From: Candidatus Gottesmanbacteria bacterium
GTDB lineage: Bacteria; Patescibacteriota; Microgenomatia; UBA10105
Length of the DNA stretch: 52,549 nt
Direction: 5' to 3'
Assembly: GCA_023245415.1 (NCBI GenBank)
Contig: JAHFKJ010000009.1
Location: forward strand, 1 to 52,549
Under the pieces are notes generated by a model. The model was not told the DNA's origin. It ran no database searches and saw nothing but the letters and a program-made list of their open reading frames with translations. A program made the position numbers and the translations under genes. Numbering within the stretch: position 1 is the stretch's first letter; every line of letters begins with the position of its first letter. Of this stretch, positions 38,371 to 52,083 are shown piece by piece.

Positions 38371-39495
38371 TTAGCGCAATTCGAGCGACGATCCATCATA
38401 CACAAGATTTTTAGGTTTAATTATTACTTGTCGTTTACCTTGTTCTATAAAACCCGCATCAATCGATGCAAAACCAGATTGTTTGATAATTTTTTGTGTT
38501 CGTTCAATTTCTTTACTCGATAGATACAATGCGTAATCTGATCCCATATTGTATGTTTGATACATTTCATCATCAGATATATTGGCGTGAATCTGAATAA
38601 AAGCAAAAATTGGCTGTGGCTCAATCACCTGTTCTATTACGTATGTAAATTTGCCTCTCGCACGCATAAGTTTTCTTAAACCATGCCCTGTAATGTTTGA
38701 AATGTAATGAATATCGATACTGGCTTTTTGCAAGCTCTGAATGAGTCTAGCATAGATATTTGTTTTGGTAAGTAAACTTTCACCATAAGTTTTCCCATTT
38801 GGTAATTTTGTCGCGTAACCTTGCGGAAGTTTCTTCGCGATGACACGAGTCAACGATATGCCATTGGCATTTACTCCATTACTCTTTATAAGTAAAATTC
38901 TATCTCCAGCCTGTAGCTTATTATCAGTAATCAAGTGTTTTTTACTCCTAATAATTCCAATTGCCGACCCGCCAAGATCGATTGTGTCTGGAACAACTAT
39001 GCCTTTTAATGTTGGTGTTTCGCCTCCACCCCAGACCACTTGAGCTTCATTGCAAGCGTTTTTCCATCCAGCTACAAAATCTCTCATCCGTTTTTTATCC
39101 TGCAACCAGGAATTATCTTCTACCGCCCAATATGCATGAATAACCAAGGGTGTGGCTCCAACTGAAACAAGATCATTAATAATAGTTGCAACAGTATCAT
39201 GTGCGATAACGTCGTAGTAGGTTTTCCCAGTAATCTTCCGCATTCCATCTGCAACCAAATTTTTTGTTCCGAGTCCTTCAATTACAGACGCCATTAAAGG
39301 CGTCTGTTTATCCCGAGACGAACCGAGGGACCATACGAACGCTGATTCACCCCGACTATCTGATAATTCACGAAACCCATGCGTTATTAAGTTCTCACCT
39401 GTTTTTAGCGCCGCAGTTTGCGCAAGTATTTTAATCGGGTCTTTAATGGCGTAATTATCTCCAACTTGGGCATAGGTAATTGAATTCTTATTCAT
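38371..39495 (-). CDS. purM: phosphoribosylformylglycinamidine cyclo-ligase (PurM), divergent
   Basis: 374 residues of the PurM/PurL superfamily. It closes FGAM to AIR using ATP. TYAQVGDNYAIKDP replaces the usual YkDaGVd opening. Recognisable blocks are IAHDTVATIINDLVSVGATPL, WGGGETPTLKG with the substrate-binding GGET, and NGVNANGISLTR. It is longer than E. coli PurM (345) and clearly divergent; the NITGHGLRKL stretch is retained. Synteny with purC, purE and purK supports the call. A selenophosphate-synthase or thiamine-kinase relative is unlikely because of the GGET motif and neighbours. Confidence 0.85.
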   Translation of the reverse strand: MNKNSITYAQVGDNYAIKDPIKILAQTAALKTGENLITHGFRELSDSRGESAFVWSLGSSRDKQTPLMASVIEGLGTKNLVADGMRKITGKTYYDVIAHDTVATIINDLVSVGATPLVIHAYWAVEDNSWLQDKKRMRDFVAGWKNACNEAQVVWGGGETPTLKGIVVPDTIDLGGSAIGIIRSKKHLITDNKLQAGDRILLIKSNGVNANGISLTRVIAKKLPQGYATKLPNGKTYGESLLTKTNIYARLIQSLQKASIDIHYISNITGHGLRKLMRARGKFTYVIEQVIEPQPIFAFIQIHANISDDEMYQTYNMGSDYALYLSSKEIERTQKIIKQSGFASIDAGFIEQGKRQVIIKPKNLVYDGSSLELR

Positions 39496-39552: not shown

Positions 39553-40524
39553 TTAAATGTGAAGATTCAAGATAGAAGTACTAATTTCTTTTTCAATCGG
39601 ATATTTTTGCACTTTGAATATCTTTCCGGTGATTTTTTCATAGACTCCAATATACCGTTTTGCAAGCGCAACCACCAGTTCTATAGGCATCTCCGGCGGT
39701 TTTCCCTCACCTCGGTATCCCCTCTTAGCATACCAAAGCCGCAAAAATTCTTTGTCAAAATTTTCCGGTTCCAAGCCTTTTTTAAATCTTTGTAGGTAGG
39801 TTTTTGCGATCCAAAATCGGGAGGAATCAGGCGTGTGAATTTCATCAATCAGTGTCAGCTGTCCTTTGTACAAACCAAATTCATACTTAGTGTCAATAAG
39901 TATCAGCCCTCGTCGTTTACAAAACCGGCTTCCATAATCAAATAAATTGAGCGCCACTTTTTCCATTTGCTTATATAATTTTTCCGGAATTATTTTACGT
40001 TTTATGATTTCCTCCCTTGTCAGTCTTTCGTCATGCACAGTACTTCCGGCTTCCGGATGAGTGGTGGGAGTGATCACCGGATTGGGTAATTTTTGATTTT
40101 TCTTAAGTCCCTCAGGAAAGTTAATTCCATAAATAAGCCGTTCACCTTTTTCATAAGAATACCAAATACTCGTTTTGGTGACGCCTGATATATAACCGCG
40201 GACGACCATCTCGACCGGTAGCGGTACACAATCATTGGCAATTAGTACATTTGGATGAGGGACTTCAGTCAAATGATTGGGAATAATCTGCTTAGTTTTT
40301 TCAAACCAAAATGCTGCAAGCAGATTGAGGACTGCGCCTTTAAATGGAATGTGACCCAAAATCACATCAAAAGCTGATTGTCGGTCTGTGGTGATAAGAA
40401 TGCGTTTACCATCAACTTTATAAAAATCCCGTACTTTTCCCTGATATTTTTTACCCAGTCCAGGAACATCAATAGTTTCTAATACTGAGGTAAGCGCATG
40501 CAAGATCGTCTTTTTCTGTAACAT
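39553..40524 (-). CDS. purC: SAICAR synthase
   Basis: 323 residues, the longer yeast-like form rather than the 237-residue E. coli form. It ligates aspartate to CAIR. YQGKVRDFY near 24-32 is the ATP-binding start, ITTDRQSAFDVILG near 43-56, VVRGYISG near 106-113, TPTTHPEAG near 151-160, and LIDEIHTPDSSRFW near 230-243 carries the metal/substrate acidic residues. The next gene, purE, makes its substrate. The purE stop is 3 bp from the purC ATG. Confidence 0.93.
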   Translation of the reverse strand: MLQKKTILHALTSVLETIDVPGLGKKYQGKVRDFYKVDGKRILITTDRQSAFDVILGHIPFKGAVLNLLAAFWFEKTKQIIPNHLTEVPHPNVLIANDCVPLPVEMVVRGYISGVTKTSIWYSYEKGERLIYGINFPEGLKKNQKLPNPVITPTTHPEAGSTVHDERLTREEIIKRKIIPEKLYKQMEKVALNLFDYGSRFCKRRGLILIDTKYEFGLYKGQLTLIDEIHTPDSSRFWIAKTYLQRFKKGLEPENFDKEFLRLWYAKRGYRGEGKPPEMPIELVVALAKRYIGVYEKITGKIFKVQKYPIEKEISTSILNLHI

Positions 40525-40527
40525 AAA

Positions 40528-41052
40528 TTATTTTCCTGTTAACTTAAGGTATTGTCGAAACCCAAAGTCTTCAAGTTTATGTGCTTTATTTTCAACTTCT
40601 TTTTTAATTTTCTCTTTAAACGTAAGTATTTTATCAGAAACTCGTTTATCACTCGTACCAATAATTTCAGCTGCTAAAATTCCTGCATTTTTAGCACCGT
40701 TAACCGTGACTGTGGCAACAGGAACTCCAGACGGCATTTGCACAATTGAGTACAGCGAATCGATTCCAAAAAGAAATTTAGATTGAATAGGTACACCTAC
40801 TACCGGTAGTGTTGTTAATGCTGCAATCATCCCGGGTAAATGTGCAGATCCGCCCGCTCCGGCAATAATTACTTTCAATCCTCTCTCTGCTGCTTTTTTA
40901 GCATAATCGAACATTCTTTCTGGAGTACGATGTGCAGATACAATAGTTAATTCAAAATCTATATCAAATTCCTCAAGTACTTTGGCTGATTCCTGCATAA
41001 CAGGCAAATCTGAATCCGAACCCATTACTATTCCTACTAACAAATTTTTCAT
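40528..41052 (-). CDS. purE: N5-carboxyaminoimidazole ribonucleotide mutase (PurE class I)
   Basis: 174 residues. GSDSDLPVM is at 11-19, SAHRTPERM near 41-49, and AGGSAHLPGMIAALTTLPVVGVP follows, the full PurE active site. Presence of purK next door makes it the class I mutase that isomerises N5-CAIR to CAIR. A strong GAGGGGG ribosome site precedes it. Confidence 0.95.
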   Translation of the reverse strand: MKNLLVGIVMGSDSDLPVMQESAKVLEEFDIDFELTIVSAHRTPERMFDYAKKAAERGLKVIIAGAGGSAHLPGMIAALTTLPVVGVPIQSKFLFGIDSLYSIVQMPSGVPVATVTVNGAKNAGILAAEIIGTSDKRVSDKILTFKEKIKKEVENKAHKLEDFGFRQYLKLTGK

Positions 41053-41151: not shown

Positions 41152-42279
41152 TTATATAGTAATAAACATCCTCGCCCGTTTGGCTTTTTTATACGCGTTT
41201 TGAATAGTTTTATCAATAGCAGTAATGTGTCCCATTTTGCGTTCCATCTTCGTATCTTTTTTGCCATAAATATGCACATATGTTTGTGGCAAGCGCAGCG
41301 CATCATCCATACCAGTTACCTGGGCCACACCTGTGCGCCCGCCTAAAATATTGATCATCACAGCAGCGGGCACAATCATATCAGTCTGACCCAAGGGCAA
41401 ACCAGTAATCGCGCGGATGTGCTGTTCAAATTGATTGGTGATACAAGCTTCAATAGTGTAATGTCCGCTGTTATGAACTCGCGGAGCGATTTCATTTACA
41501 AGTACTTGGCCTCTCTTTGTCAAAAACATTTCAATTCCAAACACACCCGCGCCTTGAAGTTGCTGCATGACTTTTTTGGCAAGTACCTGAGTTTTTTTAG
41601 AAATATTTTTCTTAATTGGTGCGGGTGCTTTGACTATATGGCAAATATTATTTTTGTGAATTGTTTCAACTACCGGATACGTCGCAATTTCCCCCTCGGT
41701 ATTTCGGGCTACCATAATAGCCAACTCTTTTACAAAAGGCACGAATTTTTCGACATAGAGACCCGAGCCCTGCAGTGAATTGAGACTTTTATCAATATCA
41801 CTGGCCTTTCGAATAAGGGCGTTTCCGCGACCATCATAGGCAAAACGGCGGGTTTTGAGAAAGATGGGATAGCCAAATTTTTTGACAGCTTTCAATATGT
41901 CCTCTTTATTTTCAACCTCAAGAAAATCAGCGACAGGTATACCATTTTTTTTGAAAAATTCTTTTTGCAGATATTTATCGTTAATGAGTTTAAACGACGT
42001 GATCGATGGATGAATAACAGCCCCGTTTTCGATTAAGTTGTCAAAAATATCTGAGTTCTCAAGTTCGATTTCGTAGGTAATCACATCTGATTTTTTAGCA
42101 AGCTTAGTAAGTGCCTGTTTATCAGAGTATTGGGCAACAATCTGTTCATCAGCAACTTGACCAGCCGGACTCTCGGGTGTCGGATCAAGAATGGTGACCC
42201 GAAAACCCATTTTGTGAGCCTCAAAAGCCATCATCCGTCCCAGTTGTCCTCCGCCAACTATACCAATTCTATTTTTCAT
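41152..42279 (-). CDS. purK: N5-carboxyaminoimidazole ribonucleotide synthase
   Basis: 375 residues, ATP-grasp fold. It makes N5-CAIR from AIR, bicarbonate and ATP. GIVGGGQLGRMMA at the N terminus, FLKTRRFAYDGRGN near 145-158 (ATP lid) and NEIAPRVHNSGHYTIEAC near 265-282 are all canonical PurK blocks. It is the first minus-strand gene left of the plus-strand peptidase, so the 84-bp divergent gap should carry its promoter; TATTAT at 42302-42307 with a distant TTTACA is the best candidate. Confidence 0.94.
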   Translation of the reverse strand: MKNRIGIVGGGQLGRMMAFEAHKMGFRVTILDPTPESPAGQVADEQIVAQYSDKQALTKLAKKSDVITYEIELENSDIFDNLIENGAVIHPSITSFKLINDKYLQKEFFKKNGIPVADFLEVENKEDILKAVKKFGYPIFLKTRRFAYDGRGNALIRKASDIDKSLNSLQGSGLYVEKFVPFVKELAIMVARNTEGEIATYPVVETIHKNNICHIVKAPAPIKKNISKKTQVLAKKVMQQLQGAGVFGIEMFLTKRGQVLVNEIAPRVHNSGHYTIEACITNQFEQHIRAITGLPLGQTDMIVPAAVMINILGGRTGVAQVTGMDDALRLPQTYVHIYGKKDTKMERKMGHITAIDKTIQNAYKKAKRARMFITI

Positions 42280-42363: not shown

Positions 42364-43575
42364 ATGACAACACCAGATCAAACATATTCAGATAAATTCG
42401 CAGAAATCGTACCAAATTTACAAGATTTATATGCTCTTACCCAACAGCTTATAACTCCTGAAATGGTTTACACTCTTACACAGCGGCTTGCTTCTGTATA
42501 TGCACCTACCGGAACTGTAGCATTTACCATCGGCCCTGTGTTAAATCAAATTGCTGCGGAGTTTCCCGGATATAATAGAATTACTGTATATCCTCATTAT
42601 TTAGACACACCCAGTCCTGCATTTGACGTAAACTGTGTTACTAAAAATACTCCCGTTTTTTTCACACACGCGGATGAAATTTCGTATGATGTCAAAACTA
42701 TGGGCTCTGGCGAAGTACCTTTGACTCCTCTATGTGCGCATCGGCAACAACCAAACATGCAGTTTCCCGGTGTTGTTCTTCGTTACAAAGATACAAAGGG
42801 TGAGCAGATACTTGAACAAATAGCTGAAGGATTTGTCCAAACAAAACCAGATAGTACAGTGATTTTCACCACTCAACATGGCTCTGAAGGAAAAATAAAA
42901 GCAGGAGATCGCGTTGTATTCAATCCCGAACAACGCTTAGCACTTGCCACAGATGGAGATACAATGACCGGAATTATAGATAACCGAGCTGGAATGGCTA
43001 TCGCTTTAGCAGTGATTCAGGTATTGGCCAATCCAGATCAGAAAATTAATCACCTTAGGGAAACGGCAGCAACTTTTATTGCAACTGATGGTGAAGAGGG
43101 AGTCGCAGATCCTCCAGTTTTTGCCTGGGGAGCTCGAGAGGTTGCATTGGCGCTACGAGAGAAATATGCGGATCAGTCGCCGATGATCGTTACCGATGGA
43201 CATGATTTTAATCGGGATAGCATTATTCCACCACAGGCATTAATTGCCCGCGTGGTTTCAAACGGTAAGGGTCCGGTCATTCAACCCGACAGGTTGCATC
43301 GAGTAAGATTACTGGTTGAAGCAATCGAAACTATTACAGGTCAACAAATGGCTGCAGAAACAGATACCGTAGGAGGCACAACGTCTAGAAGTGATGATGA
43401 AGGTTTACGGCGAGGCGGTATAGCCGGACGTTTAATTTATCCAATTGGTTATGGTGTAAAAGCAGCCCACCATGATGATGGAGAACCTGCAGCAGCATCG
43501 TTGAATAACTTAGTTACAACTGCCCGATTCTTAACTCTAGCTGTCTACGCAGCAAATAAAGGATTGCTGTATTAA
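42364..43575 (+). CDS. M42-like binuclear metallopeptidase, the only plus-strand gene
   Basis: 403 residues. Spaced metal-site motifs fit the M42/M28 di-zinc aminopeptidase fold: HAD (102-104), IDNRAG (205-210), catalytic EE (244-245), TDGHD (277-281) and HH (369-370). Extra blocks not usual in M42 are CAHR (124-127), GKGPVI (301-306), SRSDD (341-345) and HDDGEPAAASLNNL. All recur in the paralogue at 50947-52083. No signal peptide is seen, so it is cytoplasmic. A deacylase or amidohydrolase role is possible. It sits in the purine cluster against the common orientation and has its own promoter and terminator. Confidence 0.75.
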   Translation: MTTPDQTYSDKFAEIVPNLQDLYALTQQLITPEMVYTLTQRLASVYAPTGTVAFTIGPVLNQIAAEFPGYNRITVYPHYLDTPSPAFDVNCVTKNTPVFFTHADEISYDVKTMGSGEVPLTPLCAHRQQPNMQFPGVVLRYKDTKGEQILEQIAEGFVQTKPDSTVIFTTQHGSEGKIKAGDRVVFNPEQRLALATDGDTMTGIIDNRAGMAIALAVIQVLANPDQKINHLRETAATFIATDGEEGVADPPVFAWGAREVALALREKYADQSPMIVTDGHDFNRDSIIPPQALIARVVSNGKGPVIQPDRLHRVRLLVEAIETITGQQMAAETDTVGGTTSRSDDEGLRRGGIAGRLIYPIGYGVKAAHHDDGEPAAASLNNLVTTARFLTLAVYAANKGLLY

Positions 43576-43613
43576 TTGGTAGACTCTGCAGATCAACCAT
43601 TAATTGTTTTTTT
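43571..43613 (+). terminator. intrinsic terminator between convergent genes
   Basis: ATTAATTGGT (43571-43580) pairs with ACCATTAAT (43596-43604) with one bulged T; a TCTGCAGA self-complementary segment lies in the loop. Seven T follow at 43607-43613. It starts at the plus-strand stop codon and runs into the end of purB, ending the peptidase transcript. GC in the stem is low, so efficiency is uncertain. Confidence 0.5.
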
Positions 43614-45005
43614 GGCAATCTTTTTAATTTGTTTGACGAGCGTTAGTGCTCGTTCTGGGGCGTCGCCAATGTAGTGTGACACATCAAGTAGGCTTTTAAT
43701 TTGTTCTTGAGTTAAATATTTGTGCAATGTGTCGCTTTCCAACAGTAAACTGTGCAGAGGATTGGGCTGGCCTTTTTGAATTGCCGACCAAGCCGGCAAA
43801 GATAATTCACGTAATAATTCATGTAATTCTTGCCGATTGCCGCCATTTTTAACAGCTGACATCAAAATCGTTTCAGTTGCAGCAAACGGACCATATTGGT
43901 CTAAATTGTATGCAATTCGTTCTAAGTTGATAACTAACCCCGTGATAATTTTTTCAGCAGTTTCAAGTATTTCATCAAGGACTATAAAAGCCTCGGAAAT
44001 TATGATGCGTTTATTTGCACTATCATCTAAGGTGCGTTCCAAATAAGAATGCGTCGCATTTTCCAATACGACCGGAGGCAACTGCTGTAAATATCTAGCC
44101 AGCGAACAAATTTTCTCACTATTTACGGGATTTTTCTTAAACGGCATCGCTGATGAGCCTACTTGTTTACTCCCAAACGGTTCACTCCACTCTCCCACAG
44201 GCGGAGACTGTAAAATTCGTAAATCTGAGGCAAATTTACCCACAGAGGAAGCAATACTGGCAAGCAGGGTTAATGCTAGATAGTCATATTTACGTGGATA
44301 AACCTGGGTAGCGATAAGCGTCCCTTCAATACCTAAAAGTTTCATTACATTATCATCCAGCACTTGTGCGGACATTTTCGTACCTTCAAGAAGTGCTTTG
44401 TAACTGGCTCTTGTTCCAACAGCACCTTTCATACCTTTTGCTTTAATATAGCTTTTAACGCTTTGCAACAAATTAAAATCAGTTAATAAATCATTGGCAT
44501 AAACTGACAATCGATACCCGACTGTTGTTGGCTCTGCAGGCTGAATATGTGTAAAACCTATGCAGGGCACACACGCATATTTTTCAATTTTGTCAGCAAA
44601 AAGTTTCAATAGTTGCAGCAATTTATTTTCTATAATGACAAAAGCTTCTTGAACTCTGAGTGCATCAGCATTATCTACTACATCCATGCTTGTGGCGCCC
44701 AAATGAATTTTGCCTCCGCCGATCTTAGCTTTTTCTGCAAATTCTTTGATTGCCGCCATTACGTCGTGTCGGGTTTCTTTTTCTATTTCTAATATCCGAG
44801 CGATGTCTATATCTTTTTCATGAGTACTTAAATCAACAAGTTCATCGTCACTTACTATACCTGCTTCGTGCTGGACTTTCGCCAGAGTAACCCAAATTCT
44901 CCGCCACAAACGATATTTATATTCTTCACTAAAAATATACCGCATTTCTTTTGACCCATAACGCCAGGAAAGGGGCGACATGTAATTTGAAAAATCAATA
45001 TTCAT
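43593..45005 (-). CDS. purB: adenylosuccinate lyase
   Basis: 470 residues. It splits SAICAR to AICAR plus fumarate and adenylosuccinate to AMP. YMSPLSWRYGS at the N terminus, GATSMDVVDNAD near 103-114, GFTHIQPAEPTTVGYR near 150-165 (catalytic His) and the flexible signature loop GSSAMPFKKNPVNSEKI near residue 285 identify the family. It lies 13 bp downstream of the purP pair, whose enzymes use its product AICAR, a sensible order. It runs convergently into the plus-strand peptidase. Confidence 0.94.
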   Translation of the reverse strand: MNIDFSNYMSPLSWRYGSKEMRYIFSEEYKYRLWRRIWVTLAKVQHEAGIVSDDELVDLSTHEKDIDIARILEIEKETRHDVMAAIKEFAEKAKIGGGKIHLGATSMDVVDNADALRVQEAFVIIENKLLQLLKLFADKIEKYACVPCIGFTHIQPAEPTTVGYRLSVYANDLLTDFNLLQSVKSYIKAKGMKGAVGTRASYKALLEGTKMSAQVLDDNVMKLLGIEGTLIATQVYPRKYDYLALTLLASIASSVGKFASDLRILQSPPVGEWSEPFGSKQVGSSAMPFKKNPVNSEKICSLARYLQQLPPVVLENATHSYLERTLDDSANKRIIISEAFIVLDEILETAEKIITGLVINLERIAYNLDQYGPFAATETILMSAVKNGGNRQELHELLRELSLPAWSAIQKGQPNPLHSLLLESDTLHKYLTQEQIKSLLDVSHYIGDAPERALTLVKQIKKIAKKTING

Positions 45006-45018
45006 ACGTCTAATACAC

Positions 45019-46140
45019 TTACGTTAAAATTAAGTTCAATTTATTTAACCCAATTGCAGCTTGTATTTCCATAGCCACGCGCATTCCCATTGAAATAGGT
45101 TCTCCATATAAATATGTAGAATAAGGGGTCGCGTTAATACCCGGTGATCCCGGCATACGTGCAGATACATCAATAACGACGATATCTTTTTTCGGTGGAC
45201 CGGCCGTTATCATAGATTGCAGTGCGAATGGCCCGATAATTCCCGGAGGACATAATTCCTGGGTCGCTTGAATGAAGCGCTTACCCAATTCAAATGCTTT
45301 TTCGAGCAGCGACTCAAGCACCGTAACCGCAATGTGCCCGGCTTCCTCATATGTTACTGAATGTCCGGCTAAAATTTCACTTTGGCTTATCGCAGGTAAA
45401 CGTAATATTCCTTCCAAGTTTGTCTGCCGGCGAGTATCAGTACCAATAAGTTCTAATCGATCAGAGACTGGCGAATAAAAAAAGTTGAAATTCACACTTG
45501 CGCCCAATACAAACTCTTCAATAATTGCCTTATCTAATGCCTCTTGAGTAATTTTTCCGGAACTAATCATTTGATTACTTTTTTGCTTGTACTCTGTGTA
45601 TGAACTACTTAAGAAAAACGCCCTTTCATACTCCCGAGCTTTTTCTGAGACTTTTATTATACACAAGCGATCGATACTTTGTGGGTCTCTAAAATGTTTG
45701 GGAAAACGAATTTCAGCATTCTGCAAGATATTATATTGATTAGGAGTCTGATCCCGTTCCTCCAGACTTAGCAAATACTTATTGCCGAATATCGGAACGT
45801 TAAATTTATTTTTAATCGATTCATAATCAAATTTAAGATATGCTTCAAATGAACGGTTGGGTATAAAAATAGTTGACTTCAATTTATCCTGTATTTCGGG
45901 CTTTAATATATCGTAAAAACGTTCAAGAATTAGACACTCATCAACACATCCAATAGTATCGAAGGTTTGACTCCCACCCGCGTGGGTATGACGAGAAAAA
46001 GAAGTTTTATAATACTCTGTGTAAGTTTTTTCTCTGCCTTTTTGTGTTACCACAAGCGTCTTAAATCCTAAGTTTTTCGCCCCGCGGCAAATATCAAGTG
46101 CGCTGTGACTACCCAAAACCGAGATAATTTGTGGATTCAT
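45019..46140 (-). CDS. purP: PurP-like FAICAR synthetase, copy 1 (divergent ATP loop)
   Basis: 373 residues from the ATG at 46140; an in-frame TTG six codons upstream would overlap the previous gene and is less likely. GSHSALDICRGAKN (10-23) is the PurP opening, then VVTQKGREKTY. Canonical PurP ligates formate to AICAR with ATP, replacing the folate-dependent step. Here the ATP-loop region reads IIKVSEKAREYERAFFL instead of the glycine-rich IVKSYGAEGGTGYF of the neighbour, and a short His/Gly-rich insertion follows the first strand block. It is probably a paralogue with altered or partner function. GPFALQ and the C-terminal SMGMRVAMEI are retained. Confidence 0.8.
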   Translation of the reverse strand: MNPQIISVLGSHSALDICRGAKNLGFKTLVVTQKGREKTYTEYYKTSFSRHTHAGGSQTFDTIGCVDECLILERFYDILKPEIQDKLKSTIFIPNRSFEAYLKFDYESIKNKFNVPIFGNKYLLSLEERDQTPNQYNILQNAEIRFPKHFRDPQSIDRLCIIKVSEKAREYERAFFLSSSYTEYKQKSNQMISSGKITQEALDKAIIEEFVLGASVNFNFFYSPVSDRLELIGTDTRRQTNLEGILRLPAISQSEILAGHSVTYEEAGHIAVTVLESLLEKAFELGKRFIQATQELCPPGIIGPFALQSMITAGPPKKDIVVIDVSARMPGSPGINATPYSTYLYGEPISMGMRVAMEIQAAIGLNKLNLILT

Positions 46141-46150
46141 TTGTGTCTGG

Positions 46151-47161
46151 TTAATCAAGTATTTCAGCTAATTTATTTCGTTTAATTGCGATGTTAATTT
46201 CCCGGGCGATCCTTCTTCCGGTACTCATAGGTTCTGAATAGAAAAATGCGGCATAGAGAGAACTATCTATAAAGAGATTCGTGCCTGCTACAATGCGACA
46301 TGAAAGTTCTATAACATAAAATTTTTGATCGGGTGTAATGATCGTTTCCAAACAAAATGGCCCCCATAATCCGCGCTTATCTATAAGCTTTTTCGATGCA
46401 TGAATAAGTTGTTCAGCCATATCATAGGCTTTTGGCATCAAGGATTCACGAAGTGCAAGTGGACTATTGCCGACAACTACAAATGATGGCGTGATATCAA
46501 TTGATTCCTGATGTGCAAGAGGCAGTCTCCCCAACGAATCAACATTTGTTTCATAACGACGATCACAGCTTAACAATTCAAGCGATTTTGTAATCGGTGA
46601 ATAAAAAAAATGAAGATACATCGGAACTCCGATGATATATTCCTGTACTAAATAATGCTTTTTAAGAAATGATTTTATTTTGTGAGTAAAATCCTTCTTG
46701 TTATGAGCAACAAAATACCCAGTTCCACCCTCTGCTCCATATGATTTGACAATCACCGGCCGATCAATATGGTCTTTTGGTTCAAACACATGAGGCGTGA
46801 GCAATCCGGCAGTTTGCATCCACCTCAACTGCTGGTGCCGATTTCTTTCCCATTCCAAGACATTTTTGTTTCCAAAATAAGGTGAAGTAATTTTTTTATT
46901 TCCGTCGATTCCTAAATATGCCACAAATGACCCATGCGGTATCAAAATCAGATTTTTATTTTGGAGTTTTTTTTCAGCAACTAACAACTGTGTGTATGAT
47001 TTAATTTCGACAAAATCATCTATAAATGTGAAGCGCTGATAAAATTTAATGCGATCGCTGGTTGCTATGATTAATGTTTTAAATCCTTCATCTTTTGCCC
47101 CTTTAAGAATTTGCAGTGCAGAATGGCTACCTAAAGTCGCAATGGTATATTTTTTTTCCAT
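46151..47161 (-). CDS. purP: PurP-like FAICAR synthetase, copy 2 (canonical)
   Basis: 336 residues, ATP-grasp. GSHSALQILKGAKDEGF is at 11-27, IPHGSFVAYLG near 75-85, the ATP loop IVKSYGAEGGTGYF near 137-150, CDRRYETN near 205-212, GPFCLETI near 274-281 and SMGRRIAREI near 316-325. These match archaeal PurP (5-formaminoimidazole-4-carboxamide ribonucleotide synthetase, formate dependent). It is likely the active copy. It sits 13 bp after purQ and 10 bp before the other copy. The family is mainly archaeal, so transfer is likely at some point in this lineage. Confidence 0.85.
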   Translation of the reverse strand: MEKKYTIATLGSHSALQILKGAKDEGFKTLIIATSDRIKFYQRFTFIDDFVEIKSYTQLLVAEKKLQNKNLILIPHGSFVAYLGIDGNKKITSPYFGNKNVLEWERNRHQQLRWMQTAGLLTPHVFEPKDHIDRPVIVKSYGAEGGTGYFVAHNKKDFTHKIKSFLKKHYLVQEYIIGVPMYLHFFYSPITKSLELLSCDRRYETNVDSLGRLPLAHQESIDITPSFVVVGNSPLALRESLMPKAYDMAEQLIHASKKLIDKRGLWGPFCLETIITPDQKFYVIELSCRIVAGTNLFIDSSLYAAFFYSEPMSTGRRIAREINIAIKRNKLAEILD

Positions 47162-47174
47162 ATCTATTTACTTT

Positions 47175-47972
47175 TTACTGATAAAATCTGACTGCATTTT
47201 TAAAAATCTGTAACCCTGGCCCGAATGTCGGTACTGTCTTCTTATTTCTCAGATAAGTTTCTTTGAGTAATGGCCAGTTCGGCAGCTGTGTAAAAAATAA
47301 CGCCCGTTCTGGATGGGGCATCAACCCAAAAACTCTGCCTGTTTCATCAGTAACTGCGGCAATATCCGATAAGGTTCCAGTTGGATTTGCTGGTAAATTT
47401 TGGTAGTTACACATTTCACCTTTGAAGTAACGCAGTGCGATCAACTTTCTTTTTTTTAGCTCTTGCAAAGTCTCAGCGGTGGCATACAATTTACCTTCTC
47501 CATGAGCAATAGGAGCTGAAAATGATTTGATGTCCTTAAGCCAAGGCGAATTACTTTCATTTTTTAGATCTACCCAGCGATCTATATAGCGCGCAGTTTC
47601 ATTATGAAGTAACGCCACCTGTCTCTTTCCATATTGCAAATTAATCCCCGGCAATAAGCCTAAGTTTATGAGTATTTGACACCCATTACAAATGCCTATC
47701 ACGAGATTGTTACCTTTTAAGTATTGCTCAATTTCAGGCCATAAATGGTTTCTGATCTTTTGCGCATAGGCATTTCCACTACCGATATCATCGCCGTACG
47801 CAAATCCTCCTGGGAAAACCAATATCTGAAACCGGGAAAATAACGTTTTCTTTGCGATAAGATCGTTAATATGAATAATTTGAGCAGTTGCGCCGGCCGT
47901 TTCAAATGCAAAGGCTGTTTCCTCTTCACAGTTCAAACCATATCCTGAAAATATCAGGGCTTTCGGTTTCAT
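47175..47972 (-). CDS. purQ: FGAM synthase glutaminase subunit (PurQ)
   Basis: 265 residues, class I glutamine amidotransferase. FPGGFAYGDD is at 53-62, the nucleophile C95 lies in GICNGCQ (93-99), and the His-Glu pair is in PHPERA (219-224; H220, E222). It releases ammonia for PurL. It is longer than Bacillus PurQ (227) and closer to the C-terminal glutaminase domain of the large single-chain enzyme. purL lies 3 bp upstream. Confidence 0.94.
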   Translation of the reverse strand: MKPKALIFSGYGLNCEEETAFAFETAGATAQIIHINDLIAKKTLFSRFQILVFPGGFAYGDDIGSGNAYAQKIRNHLWPEIEQYLKGNNLVIGICNGCQILINLGLLPGINLQYGKRQVALLHNETARYIDRWVDLKNESNSPWLKDIKSFSAPIAHGEGKLYATAETLQELKKRKLIALRYFKGEMCNYQNLPANPTGTLSDIAAVTDETGRVFGLMPHPERALFFTQLPNWPLLKETYLRNKKTVPTFGPGLQIFKNAVRFYQ

Positions 47973-47975
47973 AAT

Positions 47976-50933
47976 TTAATAATCTTTAAATGTCTGCTTA
48001 TACGCTTCTAATACCGTGTCCATATCCATATTTACAATTTTCTTACCTTTAATACCCTTAATTACCACTTTTTGATCTGCAGTCACAATTCCCAGTAACC
48101 CATAGGGTATTCCAGACATGGTTTTTTCAAATTCTTTTTTATTTTGAGGAGCAATACTCAATACAATTCTACCCTGACTTTCAGAGAAAAGGACAAAATC
48201 GTCGCGACTAAAGCTGCCGGGTAATTTATTTAACTCAATATTTATTCCCAGCAAACCTCCCATCGCCATTTTTAGGATCGCCACTCCCAGCCCAGCGCGT
48301 CCTACACTCTGGGCTGAAGTAATGAGTCCTTTTCGGACACAGCTATGAAAAGCTCGATAAATTTTTGTATTTTTATAAGCATCAACATGAGGCACTGAGT
48401 TACCAATGTCAATCCCTCGGTCATGATCGAGTAAATAAAAATATTCACTTGCACCCAGTTCTTCATGAGTCTCACCAATTACATATAGAAGATCTCCGGG
48501 AAACTTAACATCGAGTGAAACTGCCTGCACTATATCATTTATTATCCCCACGGCAGAAATTAACAATGTCGGAGGTACAGAAATTATAAGCGGATTACCT
48601 TGATCATCATATCCCTTAAAATCATTAAACATACTGTCTTTCCCTGAAATAAATGGAGTTTCATAAACAGTTGCGATATCGTAACAAGCTTTAACTGCCC
48701 GCTTAAGTTGTCCCAACCGCTCCGGATCCGTAGAACTGCACCAGCAAAAATTATCAAGAAGCGCTATACGCGCGGGATCGGCTCCAGCCGCCACACAATT
48801 GCGTACCGCCGTATCAATCGCCGCAGCTACCATATGATATGTATCAATATCGCTATATGACGGATATAATCCTTGCGAGATGACTAAACCTTTGTTGGAA
48901 CTCAGAAGCGGTCGCATCACGGAAGCGTCTCCATTTACTCTCCCCCTTCCCTGAAGCGGTTTGATGATAGAGGTCCCTTGCACCTCATGATCATACTGGG
49001 TTGAGATAAATTCGAAACTCGTTATATTGGGTCGGGCAAGTATTTTTAAGAGTGAGTTATTAAGATTTTCAGATGTTGCCAGCTGAGGTTCTGAATGTTT
49101 TACTTGGGTAAATGTCGTCGTTAACTTTCTCCGAGGTAAGCCATTGTGCAAAAAATTCATATCCATATCCATAATCTTTTCTTTATGGTAGTAAACGCTG
49201 CATTTCCCCGAATGGGTAAATTCACCAATCACTGTGGCTTCGACACCTCTTCGTTTCATGAGTTCTGCAAATTTTTTCCATTTGCGCTTAGGTACCGCCA
49301 AGGTCATCCGTTCCTGTGATTCAGATATCCAGATTTGCCAGGGAGCAAGTCCTGGATATTTTACCGGAACTTTATTCAGCCTCACCTCACACCCGCGACT
49401 CTCTTTGGCCATTTCAGCAACAGAACAGGACAACCCACCCGCACCGTTATCAGTAATACTGTTATATAATCCGAGATTTCTGGCCTCTTTAACCAATGCG
49501 TCGGAAAGTTTTTTTTGCGTAATCGGATCTCCGATTTGCACCGCAGTTGCCGGGCTACCGCTATCCATGGCTTCTGATGAAAACGTCGCCCCATGAATTC
49601 CATCCAATCCCACTCTTCCGCCAACTATCACTATATAATCTCCGGGTCTGGCTTTTTTAACATACATTTTTTTGCCTTTGTTTTTTTTAGGAATGATTCC
49701 TACCGTTCCCACAAATACCAAAGGCTTACCTTTGAAACGTACATCAAAATTTAAAAAGCCTTGCGGGGTAGGAATTCCGGAACAGTTTCCACCGGAATTG
49801 ACTCCGGCTATAACTCCGTCCATGATTCTTCTTGGTGACAACATCGGTTGGGTTTTATTGGGTCCTTTATACAAGAGTGTATTATCATCTGGAGGAGCAA
49901 AACAAAATCCATATGTGTTGGCAATCGGTTTGGCTCCCAATCCAAAACCAATTGCGTCGCGATTTACGCCCACAATTCCGGTGATTGAACCGCCAAATGG
50001 ATCAAGTGCGCTCGGACTGTTGTGAGTTTCGACTTTGTGAGTTACCAAAAAATCTTTGTCAAATTCAATCGCCCCAGAATTATCTGTAAAAATAGAAACA
50101 CAAAAATCTCCTCTACCCAGCTTTTTTCTGATATCACTAGTTGCTTTTTTGATATACGTTTTATAAAGTCCGTCCTTTAAGTCATCAATCGGATCGGCAA
50201 ATATCGTATGTTTGCAATGTTCAGACCACGTCTGTGCTAGAGATTCAAGTTCAAGATCAGTCGGATTCCGTTTCTTCGTATCAAAATACGCACGGATCGT
50301 TTTCAAGTACAATAAATCCAACGCCAGCGGCCCTCGCCTAGTTCCATCTGCATCCGGAATGCCTGACTTACCCAATCTGACAAGTTCTTCATCAGAAATA
50401 TGCAGATCTACGCTGTCGACTTTTTGCGTCGCCGTCAGTTTCACTCGCGGCACGATCCTATCCATTCCCCTATCTCTTAGATATTTTGAATAACTTTTAG
50501 TTGAGGCTCGTTGGATAACTGGATTATATAAGCTATGTGCAATACGCCCAGTGTCTTCTTTAGAGATATTTCCTGAAATAAATATTACCTGAGATGTATA
50601 AACCCCATCATGTAGTGAGAATTTTACTTTTAAAAAATCTTCAATCATTTCGCGCGCTGTACTTGCGACATTATCAGTCACTCCCGGAAGAAATCCGATT
50701 TCGATCGCATAATCAAAATGCAGTTCTTGAAGAGTCAGAAGTTGCTGGGTGACGGGATTGACGAACATCTCCTGGATTTGGGAAAGTTGGGTGCGCTTAA
50801 GAGATGAATCGATCGTATAAATATCGGCAATGGCCACACTCTTAACCGCAAATTTTTGTGCTGTAAATTTTTTGGCAAGCGACGTAGCCCGTGCATCTAC
50901 AATTTTTGATATAACTTCGATTCTTTCTGCCAT
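47976..50933 (-). CDS. purL: FGAM synthase synthetase subunit (PurL), intermediate length with PurS-like N terminus
   Basis: 985 residues. Residues about 1-165 contain PurS-like segments (RIEVISKIVDARA and a second related part). A linker with SDEELVRLGKSG follows, then TWSEHCKHT (235-243), KVETHNSPSALDPFGGSITG, the SEAMDSGSPATAVQIGDP block, and a second PurM-like half with GKDSMFNDF. Small PurL is about 740 residues and needs separate PurS; large PurL is about 1300 with PurQ fused. This one has PurS fused but PurQ separate. It converts FGAR to FGAM with ammonia from PurQ. Confidence 0.93.
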   Translation of the reverse strand: MAERIEVISKIVDARATSLAKKFTAQKFAVKSVAIADIYTIDSSLKRTQLSQIQEMFVNPVTQQLLTLQELHFDYAIEIGFLPGVTDNVASTAREMIEDFLKVKFSLHDGVYTSQVIFISGNISKEDTGRIAHSLYNPVIQRASTKSYSKYLRDRGMDRIVPRVKLTATQKVDSVDLHISDEELVRLGKSGIPDADGTRRGPLALDLLYLKTIRAYFDTKKRNPTDLELESLAQTWSEHCKHTIFADPIDDLKDGLYKTYIKKATSDIRKKLGRGDFCVSIFTDNSGAIEFDKDFLVTHKVETHNSPSALDPFGGSITGIVGVNRDAIGFGLGAKPIANTYGFCFAPPDDNTLLYKGPNKTQPMLSPRRIMDGVIAGVNSGGNCSGIPTPQGFLNFDVRFKGKPLVFVGTVGIIPKKNKGKKMYVKKARPGDYIVIVGGRVGLDGIHGATFSSEAMDSGSPATAVQIGDPITQKKLSDALVKEARNLGLYNSITDNGAGGLSCSVAEMAKESRGCEVRLNKVPVKYPGLAPWQIWISESQERMTLAVPKRKWKKFAELMKRRGVEATVIGEFTHSGKCSVYYHKEKIMDMDMNFLHNGLPRRKLTTTFTQVKHSEPQLATSENLNNSLLKILARPNITSFEFISTQYDHEVQGTSIIKPLQGRGRVNGDASVMRPLLSSNKGLVISQGLYPSYSDIDTYHMVAAAIDTAVRNCVAAGADPARIALLDNFCWCSSTDPERLGQLKRAVKACYDIATVYETPFISGKDSMFNDFKGYDDQGNPLIISVPPTLLISAVGIINDIVQAVSLDVKFPGDLLYVIGETHEELGASEYFYLLDHDRGIDIGNSVPHVDAYKNTKIYRAFHSCVRKGLITSAQSVGRAGLGVAILKMAMGGLLGINIELNKLPGSFSRDDFVLFSESQGRIVLSIAPQNKKEFEKTMSGIPYGLLGIVTADQKVVIKGIKGKKIVNMDMDTVLEAYKQTFKDY

Positions 50934-50946
50934 ATTTTTAAGATTC

Positions 50947-52083
50947 TCATCTAGGCATTTCTGCTGCTATCCAAGCTACTGCTTTTGCGGTCTGAACTAA
51001 CCCTTTTAAATTCGCAGTTGGTCGTCCATCATTAAAATGTGGATCGCGCACGTCATATCCAATAGGCATGATATTCTCCATCACTTCCATATATGCAGCA
51101 TCATCGCTTCTAGAAACCGCTGCGCCATCTTCTGTCATTCGTGACGACACACTATATGGAACTACACTCGTCAAGAATGATTCAAATTCTGCATATACAT
51201 CTGGAGGAATGACCGGACCTTTATTGGCTGAAACATATGCTGCATATCTAACAACAGGTTGAGGATCCATGGTATCATGACCATCAACATTTACAACTCT
51301 TTCAGGCAACTTCCCTGCAAAACCTGCTCGGTTGATGATAGCTCGCGCACCTCGTGAAAAATATGCCGGATCATGTTCTAATCCTTCTTCAGAATCAGGA
51401 AATACAAATCCGACTCCTAAGTCGGTTAATGTAATGCCATTTTTCTGAGCAACTGCACTAAGTGCTCTAAGACTTGCCAAACAAACTGCTAGTCCAGCGG
51501 CATTATCCATATTTCCTGTAACTAATTCATTTTCCAAGGTAAATGCAGGCGTATAAACTACCCTATCGGAAGGTTTAAAACCGTCTTTTGGTTTTTCCGA
51601 AGCCGTATAGTATGGCTTAAATTCCTGCTCACGGCTCCCTGTTGATCCGATAACTCCCTCACTTACTCGCTCATATCCATCTAGACTTTTATTCCAACGA
51701 AGAACTGCTGCAGGAAATTCGCGCGCCACACGTGGACGATGTGCACAGTTTGGCAATATCGGAGACGATGGTTCATTCGTTGATCTAGGGAATAAATAAC
51801 TAATGGTATCCGCATGCGCATCAAACCATAATGGCTGCCTAACACTTAACAAAACTGCAGGAGAACGAGTGCCTAAGAAATGGACGCTAAAGTGTTCCGT
51901 AGGAATACCCGCCTCAAGAGCTAGCTGCTGAAGTATAGGTGTTCTAGTGTGCAAAACTGTTCCCGAAGGAGCTGGTTCTTGAAGTTGTTTTAACAAAGTT
52001 AATACAGTCTCCTCAGTAATAATCGCATTTATTATTAGCGCAGTTTCATCCATTCTCAAATCTCTATGTGCTTCTACTGTCAT
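50947..52083 (-). CDS. M42-like binuclear metallopeptidase, paralogue of the 42364 gene
   Basis: 378 residues. Metal-site motifs line up with the plus-strand copy: HAD (90-92), MDNAAG (192-197), EE (232-233), VDGHD (266-270) and H349 in DPHFNDGRP. The shared extra blocks are CAHR (113-116), NKGPVI (287-292), SRSDD (324-328) and PIGYD. Identity is modest, so the duplication is old. No signal peptide. It lies 13 bp upstream of purL and 25 bp from the HAD gene, so it is transcribed with the purine genes. Substrate unknown; an internal ATG at codon 11 is an alternative start. Confidence 0.72.
   Translation of the reverse strand: MTVEAHRDLRMDETALIINAIITEETVLTLLKQLQEPAPSGTVLHTRTPILQQLALEAGIPTEHFSVHFLGTRSPAVLLSVRQPLWFDAHADTISYLFPRSTNEPSSPILPNCAHRPRVAREFPAAVLRWNKSLDGYERVSEGVIGSTGSREQEFKPYYTASEKPKDGFKPSDRVVYTPAFTLENELVTGNMDNAAGLAVCLASLRALSAVAQKNGITLTDLGVGFVFPDSEEGLEHDPAYFSRGARAIINRAGFAGKLPERVVNVDGHDTMDPQPVVRYAAYVSANKGPVIPPDVYAEFESFLTSVVPYSVSSRMTEDGAAVSRSDDAAYMEVMENIMPIGYDVRDPHFNDGRPTANLKGLVQTAKAVAWIAAEMPR

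Follow-up and report, generated by a model that had tools for sequence, protein, structure and literature searches.

Two adjacent genes in the pur cluster of a Patescibacteria contig encode a cluster I and a cluster II PurP (PurP-I and PurP-II), and we consider with moderate confidence that the pair is a single AICAR-to-IMP module standing in place of PurH, in which PurP-I would carry out the formylation and PurP-II would act as its partner and perhaps as the cyclising protein. Contig C46 of genome G000 (1.55 Mb in 60 contigs, 96.1% complete) carries both genes on its minus strand, in the window, by which we mean the whole stretch of 52,549 nucleotides that was analysed.

The pair had been picked out originally as adjacent ATP-grasp PurP proteins, and both reading frames were recovered on the minus strand at the positions in Table 1, each with GSHSAL as its N-terminal block. 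PurP-II can be read from an ATG at 46140, giving 373 amino acids, or from an upstream TTG at 46158, giving 379 amino acids and an overlap of 8 nt with PurP-I. Both proteins matched PF06849 and PF06973 far over the curated cut-offs (139.4 and 207.5 bits for PurP-I, compared to cut-offs of 25 and 23.8), and the NCBIfam PurP equivalogs were the best family for the cluster I copy, but at 360.6 against a lineage-specific cut-off of 580. Between them the two proteins share 31% identity (E 2e-51), and their nearest solved structures are P. furiosus PF1517 for PurP-I (2r84, E 2.7e-97) and M. jannaschii MJ0136 for PurP-II (E 9e-65). AlphaFold2 models (mean pLDDT 86.9 for PurP-I and 88.8 for PurP-II) likewise gave PurP structures as top Foldseek matches (2r86/2r84/2r7m and 2r7m/2r7l respectively).

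Table 1. Positions in the window of the PurP pair, the remodelled loop and the accompanying pur genes, with the basis for each assignment.
Feature	Position	Strand	Basis and remarks
purL (FGAM synthase, 985 aa)	47976..50933	-	TIGR01736 516.7 bits, slightly below curated cut-off; AIRS/AIRS_C/linker
purQ	47175..47972	-	PRK01175/TIGR01737, under curated cut-offs
PurP-I (cluster I, Ib-like), ATP-grasp FAICAR synthetase homologue	46151..47161	-	336 aa; Pfam, 2r84, motifs, tree
PurP-II (cluster II), paralogue with altered loop and carboxamide-contact His	45019..46158	-	Pfam, MJ0136, N258H, tree
Remodelled PurP-II loop, residues 161-176, IIKVSEKAREYERAFF	45613..45660	-	alignment; numbered from ATG 46140; replaces glycine-rich ATP loop
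purB (adenylosuccinate lyase), immediately downstream of PurP-II	43593..45005	-	TIGR00928 394.8 bits, over cut-off
purK	41152..42279	-	TIGR01161 445 bits
purE	40528..41052	-	TIGR01162 223.5 bits
purC (SAICAR synthetase)	39553..40524	-	PRK12607 394 bits
purM (AIR synthetase family)	38371..39495	-	TIGR00878 179.8 bits, under cut-off; AIRS domains

The setting is a bacterial pur cluster, as had been proposed: family profiles recovered purM, purC, purE, purK, purB, purQ and purL, with the PurP pair placed between purQ/purL and purB, and other genes on the contig are bacterial (RF2, BacA/UppP, an FtsE-like ABC ATPase beside FtsX, and TsaE). The PurL protein has about 200 N-terminal residues without a Pfam match, and a PurS-like fusion is possible. 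Two related M28-peptidase-like proteins are also encoded here, one of 403 aa that lies between purK and purB in the opposite orientation (42364-43575, +) and one of 378 aa upstream of purL (50947-52083, -); both gave marginal Pfam matches only and no NCBIfam match, and no such protein was seen in the pur clusters of the related genomes G388 and G407. Elsewhere in the window a run of glycosyltransferase, nucleotide-sugar epimerase, flippase-like and membrane mannosyltransferase-like ORFs (750-28000) is probably a cell-surface polysaccharide cluster, judging by eye from the translations.

For archaea, Brown et al. (2011) described cluster I PurPs, with an ATP loop and Asn258, and cluster II PurPs, with a loop two residues longer and His258, a species with a cluster II protein always having one of cluster Ib as well; in these enzymes His27 and Arg314 contact the formyl group and Asn258 contacts the carboxamide (PMC3261824). 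PurP-I retains H27, S94, N258, S266 and R314 in M. jannaschii (MJ) numbering, its own H13, N232, S240 and R289 being MJ H27, N258, S266 and R314, and it resembles MJ0136 (cluster Ia; 2r7k-2r7n) in fold, substrate contacts and ATP loop. Scored against the cluster I reference consensus (K/R)GG(K/R)G, PurP-I has the ATP loop, its GAEGGTG retaining the central and final glycines with the flanking K/R changed to E and T. At the position where PurP-I has VIVKSYGAEGGTGYF, PurP-II aligns with IIKVSEKAREYERAFF, a loop that is two residues longer and charged, with most glycines gone (KVSEKAREYERAFF vs KSYGAEGGTGYF), and H269 of PurP-II is the His at position 258 (M. jannaschii numbering) where cluster I has Asn. 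Judged on sequence, PurP-I is a fit to each feature of cluster I and PurP-II to each feature of cluster II.

This division held when proteins of Patescibacteria, Woesearchaeota and Thermoplasmatota were surveyed (66 of type I, 67 of type II), with Asn at position 258 in 66/66 type I proteins and His in 66/66 of the type II proteins having that column. The type II loop has a motif of its own (Arg164 in 67/67, an inserted Glu and Arg/Lys162 in nearly all), Arg93, Asn208, Gln297 and Asp310 are further type II-specific residues, and His27, Ser266, Arg314, Lys156, Asp226 and Arg228 are common to both types. Because this motif is conserved across 67 sequences, type II is under its own constraint and is no broken type I, which rules out PurP-II as a decaying pseudoenzyme. 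The original prediction had spoken of a lost ATP loop; the glycine-rich loop has indeed been replaced, but what stands there is a conserved loop proper to type II, accompanied by the Asn-to-His swap.

In a census of draft genomes (match threshold E 0.001), PurP was found in 38 of 380 Patescibacteria genomes, 37 of them with exactly two copies. All 26 carriers in the Nanoarchaeota sample had exactly two (a 27th match was a fragment), as did 84 of the 93 Thermoplasmatota carriers, where five had three copies and four had one. Each of the 64 genomes examined at sequence level had one type I and one type II protein, and G000 itself has one of each. Type I preceded type II, adjacent and on the same strand, in every stretch holding both from Patescibacteria (40/40) and Nanoarchaeota (13/13); type II preceded type I in the four Thermoplasmatota stretches examined, most Thermoplasmatota copies being on different contigs. 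That the pair's neighbourhood is preserved though the order differs counts for joint action of the two proteins. One Patescibacteria genome (G234, 99% complete) has a lone type II, whose branch is longer than any other of type II and in which His27 is gone, and such a drifted copy would be the expected residue of an obligate partnership. The earlier idea that the copies form a hetero-oligomer or have split functions is consistent with this strict I/II pairing, which suits joint and split function alike, and PurP-I and PurP-II probably act together.

A PurP tree of 134 rows, built by a quick method for which the number and direction of archaea-bacteria transfers are out of reach, placed clusters I and II in separate clades (SH-aLRT 99 for the type II clade), with PurP-I of the window among type I (support 95); the proposed presence of the archaeal two-type PurP in a bacterium was upheld, one copy falling in each clade. 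Patescibacteria formed two main groups inside each type, near Woesearchaeota and Thermoplasmatota; PurP-II of the window grouped with those of G388 and G407, and PurP-I with the same two genomes and Roizmanbacterium G381. The PurPs of another genome of the same phylum, G004, are nearly identical to those of Peribacteria, and this, with the grouping of Roizmanbacterium with PurP-I of the window, is the basis on which G000 was assigned to Patescibacteria. As the two types are separate and sequences group similarly within each of them, the pair appears to be older than these lineages and to have moved together.

The genome search for purH or purO suggested with the original prediction found neither in G000. 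The AICARFT profile (PF01808) gave no match there, with 12 of 14 genomes matched by the same profile as a control; in the search for an IMP cyclohydrolase, PF02142 matched only as the MGS domain of carB and PF07826 (PurO) gave none. No PurO was found in 80 other genomes searched either, nearly all of them PurP carriers. AICARFT, MGS-type IMP cyclohydrolase and PurO were likewise absent from G388 (same family, 94% complete), from G407 (same order, 82%) and from five Thermoplasmatota with the pair (G426, G428, G437, G446 and G473), Roizmanbacterium G381 has the pair with no PurH, PurH2 or PurO, and four Nanoarchaeota had no MGS-type cyclohydrolase in a search for MGS alone. By these profile searches the pair is the sole known candidate for AICAR formylation in PurH-less genomes, and the IMP cyclohydrolase is missing. 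Folate-free synthesis of FAICAR, as originally proposed, gains from this result for the step itself, formate-dependent AICAR formylation being the sole known route left in a genome with no purH or purO, but does not imply a folate-free pathway as a whole, given that in the Roizmanbacterium relative the operon holding the pair also includes a purN gene, of the formyltransferase family. A purH together with loss of binding residues in both PurP copies, the combination named beforehand as contrary evidence, was not what G000 contained, and the missing IMP cyclohydrolase step, which the prediction did not mention, is the more interesting gap.

Several reading frames resembling PurH were considered and rejected. 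The MGS ORFs of PurH size in G381 proved to be C-terminal MGS-like domains fused to argininosuccinate synthase-like and class II tRNA synthetase-like proteins encoded by neighbouring genes (L141 926-2542, -, and 2750-4294, +), the MGS ORFs of G437 and G446 are methylglyoxal-synthase-like and that of G473 is part of carB (by eye), and a short PurH2 in G455 is a contig-end truncation whose remainder is on another contig. The G407 operon reads purF-purN-like-purD-purL-purQ-purP1-purP2-purB-purE-purC-purM, with no purK seen and no known gene for FAICAR to IMP. Its purN-like gene, between purF and purD (L119 2351-3274, +), encodes 308 aa with a weak PurN match (TIGR00639, E 5e-5) and may be a PurN that has diverged strongly or another kind of GAR formyltransferase. 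In G388, purC and purM are seemingly fused in one 721-aa frame (L118 12795-14957, +). No third gene near the pair common to the PurH-less operons was found.

PurH is also present in 35 of the 38 Patescibacteria PurP carriers (odds ratio for the PurP-PurH association in Patescibacteria 79, Fisher p ~5e-24, kinship ignored), which rules out its absence as a general explanation of the pair, and because most pair carriers retain PurH the pair is no simple substitute for it. PurH beside the pair is either fused or split into adjacent genes, with both domains present; split PurH2 and PurH1 genes were observed in two Patescibacteria (L142, L143) and eight Nanoarchaeota (L184, L186, L187, L189, L191, L194, L195, L197). 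The stand-alone PurH2 of these eight was weighed as counter-evidence to a cyclohydrolase role of the pair and dismissed, as PurH1 adjoins it in 8/8. Where sequence was read, both PurH active sites were intact by motif alignment (E. coli PurH numbering); a pattern scan had hinted that one active site was lost, but the alignment showed every key motif present. No PurH2-only remnant lay alongside the pair in the stretches examined, and this lack of PurH2 without PurH1 favours a pair able to perform both steps. In G178 and G227 purH comes immediately after the pair, a place occupied by purB in the window. Genomes carry the pair, PurH or both, and in terms of gene content the two behave as alternative complete modules.

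We propose that the pair was inherited together by a Patescibacteria lineage and installed in the pur operon, where it would have replaced PurH in this clade. PurP-I, with its ATP loop and AICAR contacts intact, would convert AICAR to FAICAR using ATP and formate, and PurP-II, which retains the nucleotide site as well as the His and Arg that contact the formyl group, would partner it, most likely as a hetero-oligomer, and may carry out an ATP-independent cyclisation of FAICAR to IMP. Ring closure to IMP requires no ATP and proceeds by attack of the carboxamide nitrogen on the formyl carbon, so that loop loss and His258 in PurP-II are changes that could be expected of a cyclohydrolase with this fold, which is no more than suggestive. 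That the pair makes FAICAR in this clade is very likely; that it also supplies IMP cyclohydrolase activity is quite possible, and a cyclohydrolase active site residing in PurP-II is a tentative suggestion. The fullest form of the proposal, a two-protein AICAR-to-IMP complex in which PurP-II, an ATP-grasp paralogue minus the ATP loop, would be a third type of IMP cyclohydrolase, is put forward with similar reserve. Bifunctional PurH (AICAR formyltransferase/IMP cyclohydrolase) would do the work of both steps, but the proteins are unrelated and it is absent from G000 and from the other pair carriers of its order. MJ0136 also differs from PurP-I in working alone, with PurO, the partner of PurP in methanogens and undetected in G000, as the cyclohydrolase. 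PF1517 (cluster Ib; 2r84-2r87) is the closest solved relative of PurP-I and its crystals bind ATP/AMP and AICAR, yet it was reported to have no AICAR formyltransferase activity when assayed, as was PF0421 (PMC3261824); that both are inactive singly, though PF1517 binds ATP and AICAR, is consistent with a partner requirement. Counting against the module, 35/38 Patescibacteria carriers have an apparently intact PurH and so leave no gap for the pair to fill, and Archaeoglobus has, in addition to the pair, an active PurH2 as a separate protein (PMC3261824, PMC6797443), a redundancy if FAICAR is already cyclised by the pair.

The pair may instead be a heteromeric FAICAR synthetase only, with IMP arising through an unrelated enzyme or through slow uncatalysed closure, which we think rather unlikely. 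Strict I/II pairing even where PurH supplies the IMP cyclohydrolase would suit it, as would the reported single inactivity of PF1517 and PF0421 and the addition of PurH2 in Archaeoglobus (PMC3261824), but it leaves at least nine genomes, from two phyla and several separate places in the tree, without any IMP cyclohydrolase, and the stretches examined had no PurH2-only remnants beside the pair. It is improbable that PurP-II alone is the missing cyclohydrolase, active without PurP-I. It does keep the formyl contacts H27 and R314 (PMC3261824) and S266, with the ATP loop gone, it has a His at the contact position for the carboxamide, the attacker of the formyl carbon, and all nine genomes that lack another IMP cyclohydrolase have it; against this, it was never seen without PurP-I in genomes keeping PurH1, a combination that would work, the single copy in G234 has drifted, and in many PurH-bearing genomes it would be redundant. 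PurP-II as a catalytically dead regulatory subunit, or as an enzyme for another substrate outside IMP synthesis, would agree with the replaced ATP loop and with no cluster II activity having been established (PMC3261824), but the fact that it sits in pur operons of several phyla and conserves the substrate-contact residues makes this highly improbable. That an ordinary purH lies on an unsequenced stretch of G000 (60 contigs, 96.1% complete), leaving the pair redundant as in same-class Patescibacteria which have both, is hardly credible, as purH is likewise missing from two further genomes of its order, G388 (94%) and G407 (82%), and from Roizmanbacterium, and purB stands in G000 where G178 and G227 have purH directly after the pair.

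The bacterial pair of PurP-I and PurP-II has its closest counterpart in the archaeal I/II pair of Sulfolobales, Pyrobaculum, Pyrococcus and Korarchaeum, which also comprises two paralogues, the cluster II one with a longer loop and N258H, often adjacent and beside purB, in Crenarchaeota and Pyrococcus without a known IMP cyclohydrolase. It differs in that the hosts here are Patescibacteria, most relatives of which also have PurH, and in that pairing was counted over about 160 genomes. Our statements on Crenarchaeota, methanogens and Archaeoglobus draw on the cited papers and on three control genomes (Methanocaldococcus, Sulfolobus and Methanosarcina). The idea that one PurP may be the missing cyclohydrolase was published in 2011 by Brown et al., who regarded the co-occurrence across species of two PurPs with a missing IMP cyclohydrolase as imperfect and had no experimental support (PMC3261824); the ring-closing enzyme is still missing in Crenarchaeota and Pyrococcus (PMC6797443), and a 2014 survey gave PurP as exclusively archaeal (PMC4177761). 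A literature search of partial coverage found no publication on the PurP pair in bacteria or Patescibacteria. The pair, its residue signature and the missing cyclohydrolase are already known, and the NCBIfam PurP models match below cut-off; the present analysis contributes the pair's presence in bacteria, a tally of pairing across about 160 genomes, and a clade of bacteria that has the pair but lacks any known cyclohydrolase.

The pairing data turn the 2011 speculation into a clear prediction that I and II function together and not singly. The bacterial host is presumably not hyperthermophilic, so that spontaneous closure at high temperature is a weaker escape here, and E. coli is likely to express the bacterial proteins. 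Nearly all life makes purines, and the bacterial pair offers a testable case of the final step, for which some archaea have no known enzyme; if the proposal is true, the same PurP-I/II complex would serve Patescibacteria, DPANN, Thermoplasmatota, Crenarchaeota and Pyrococcus.
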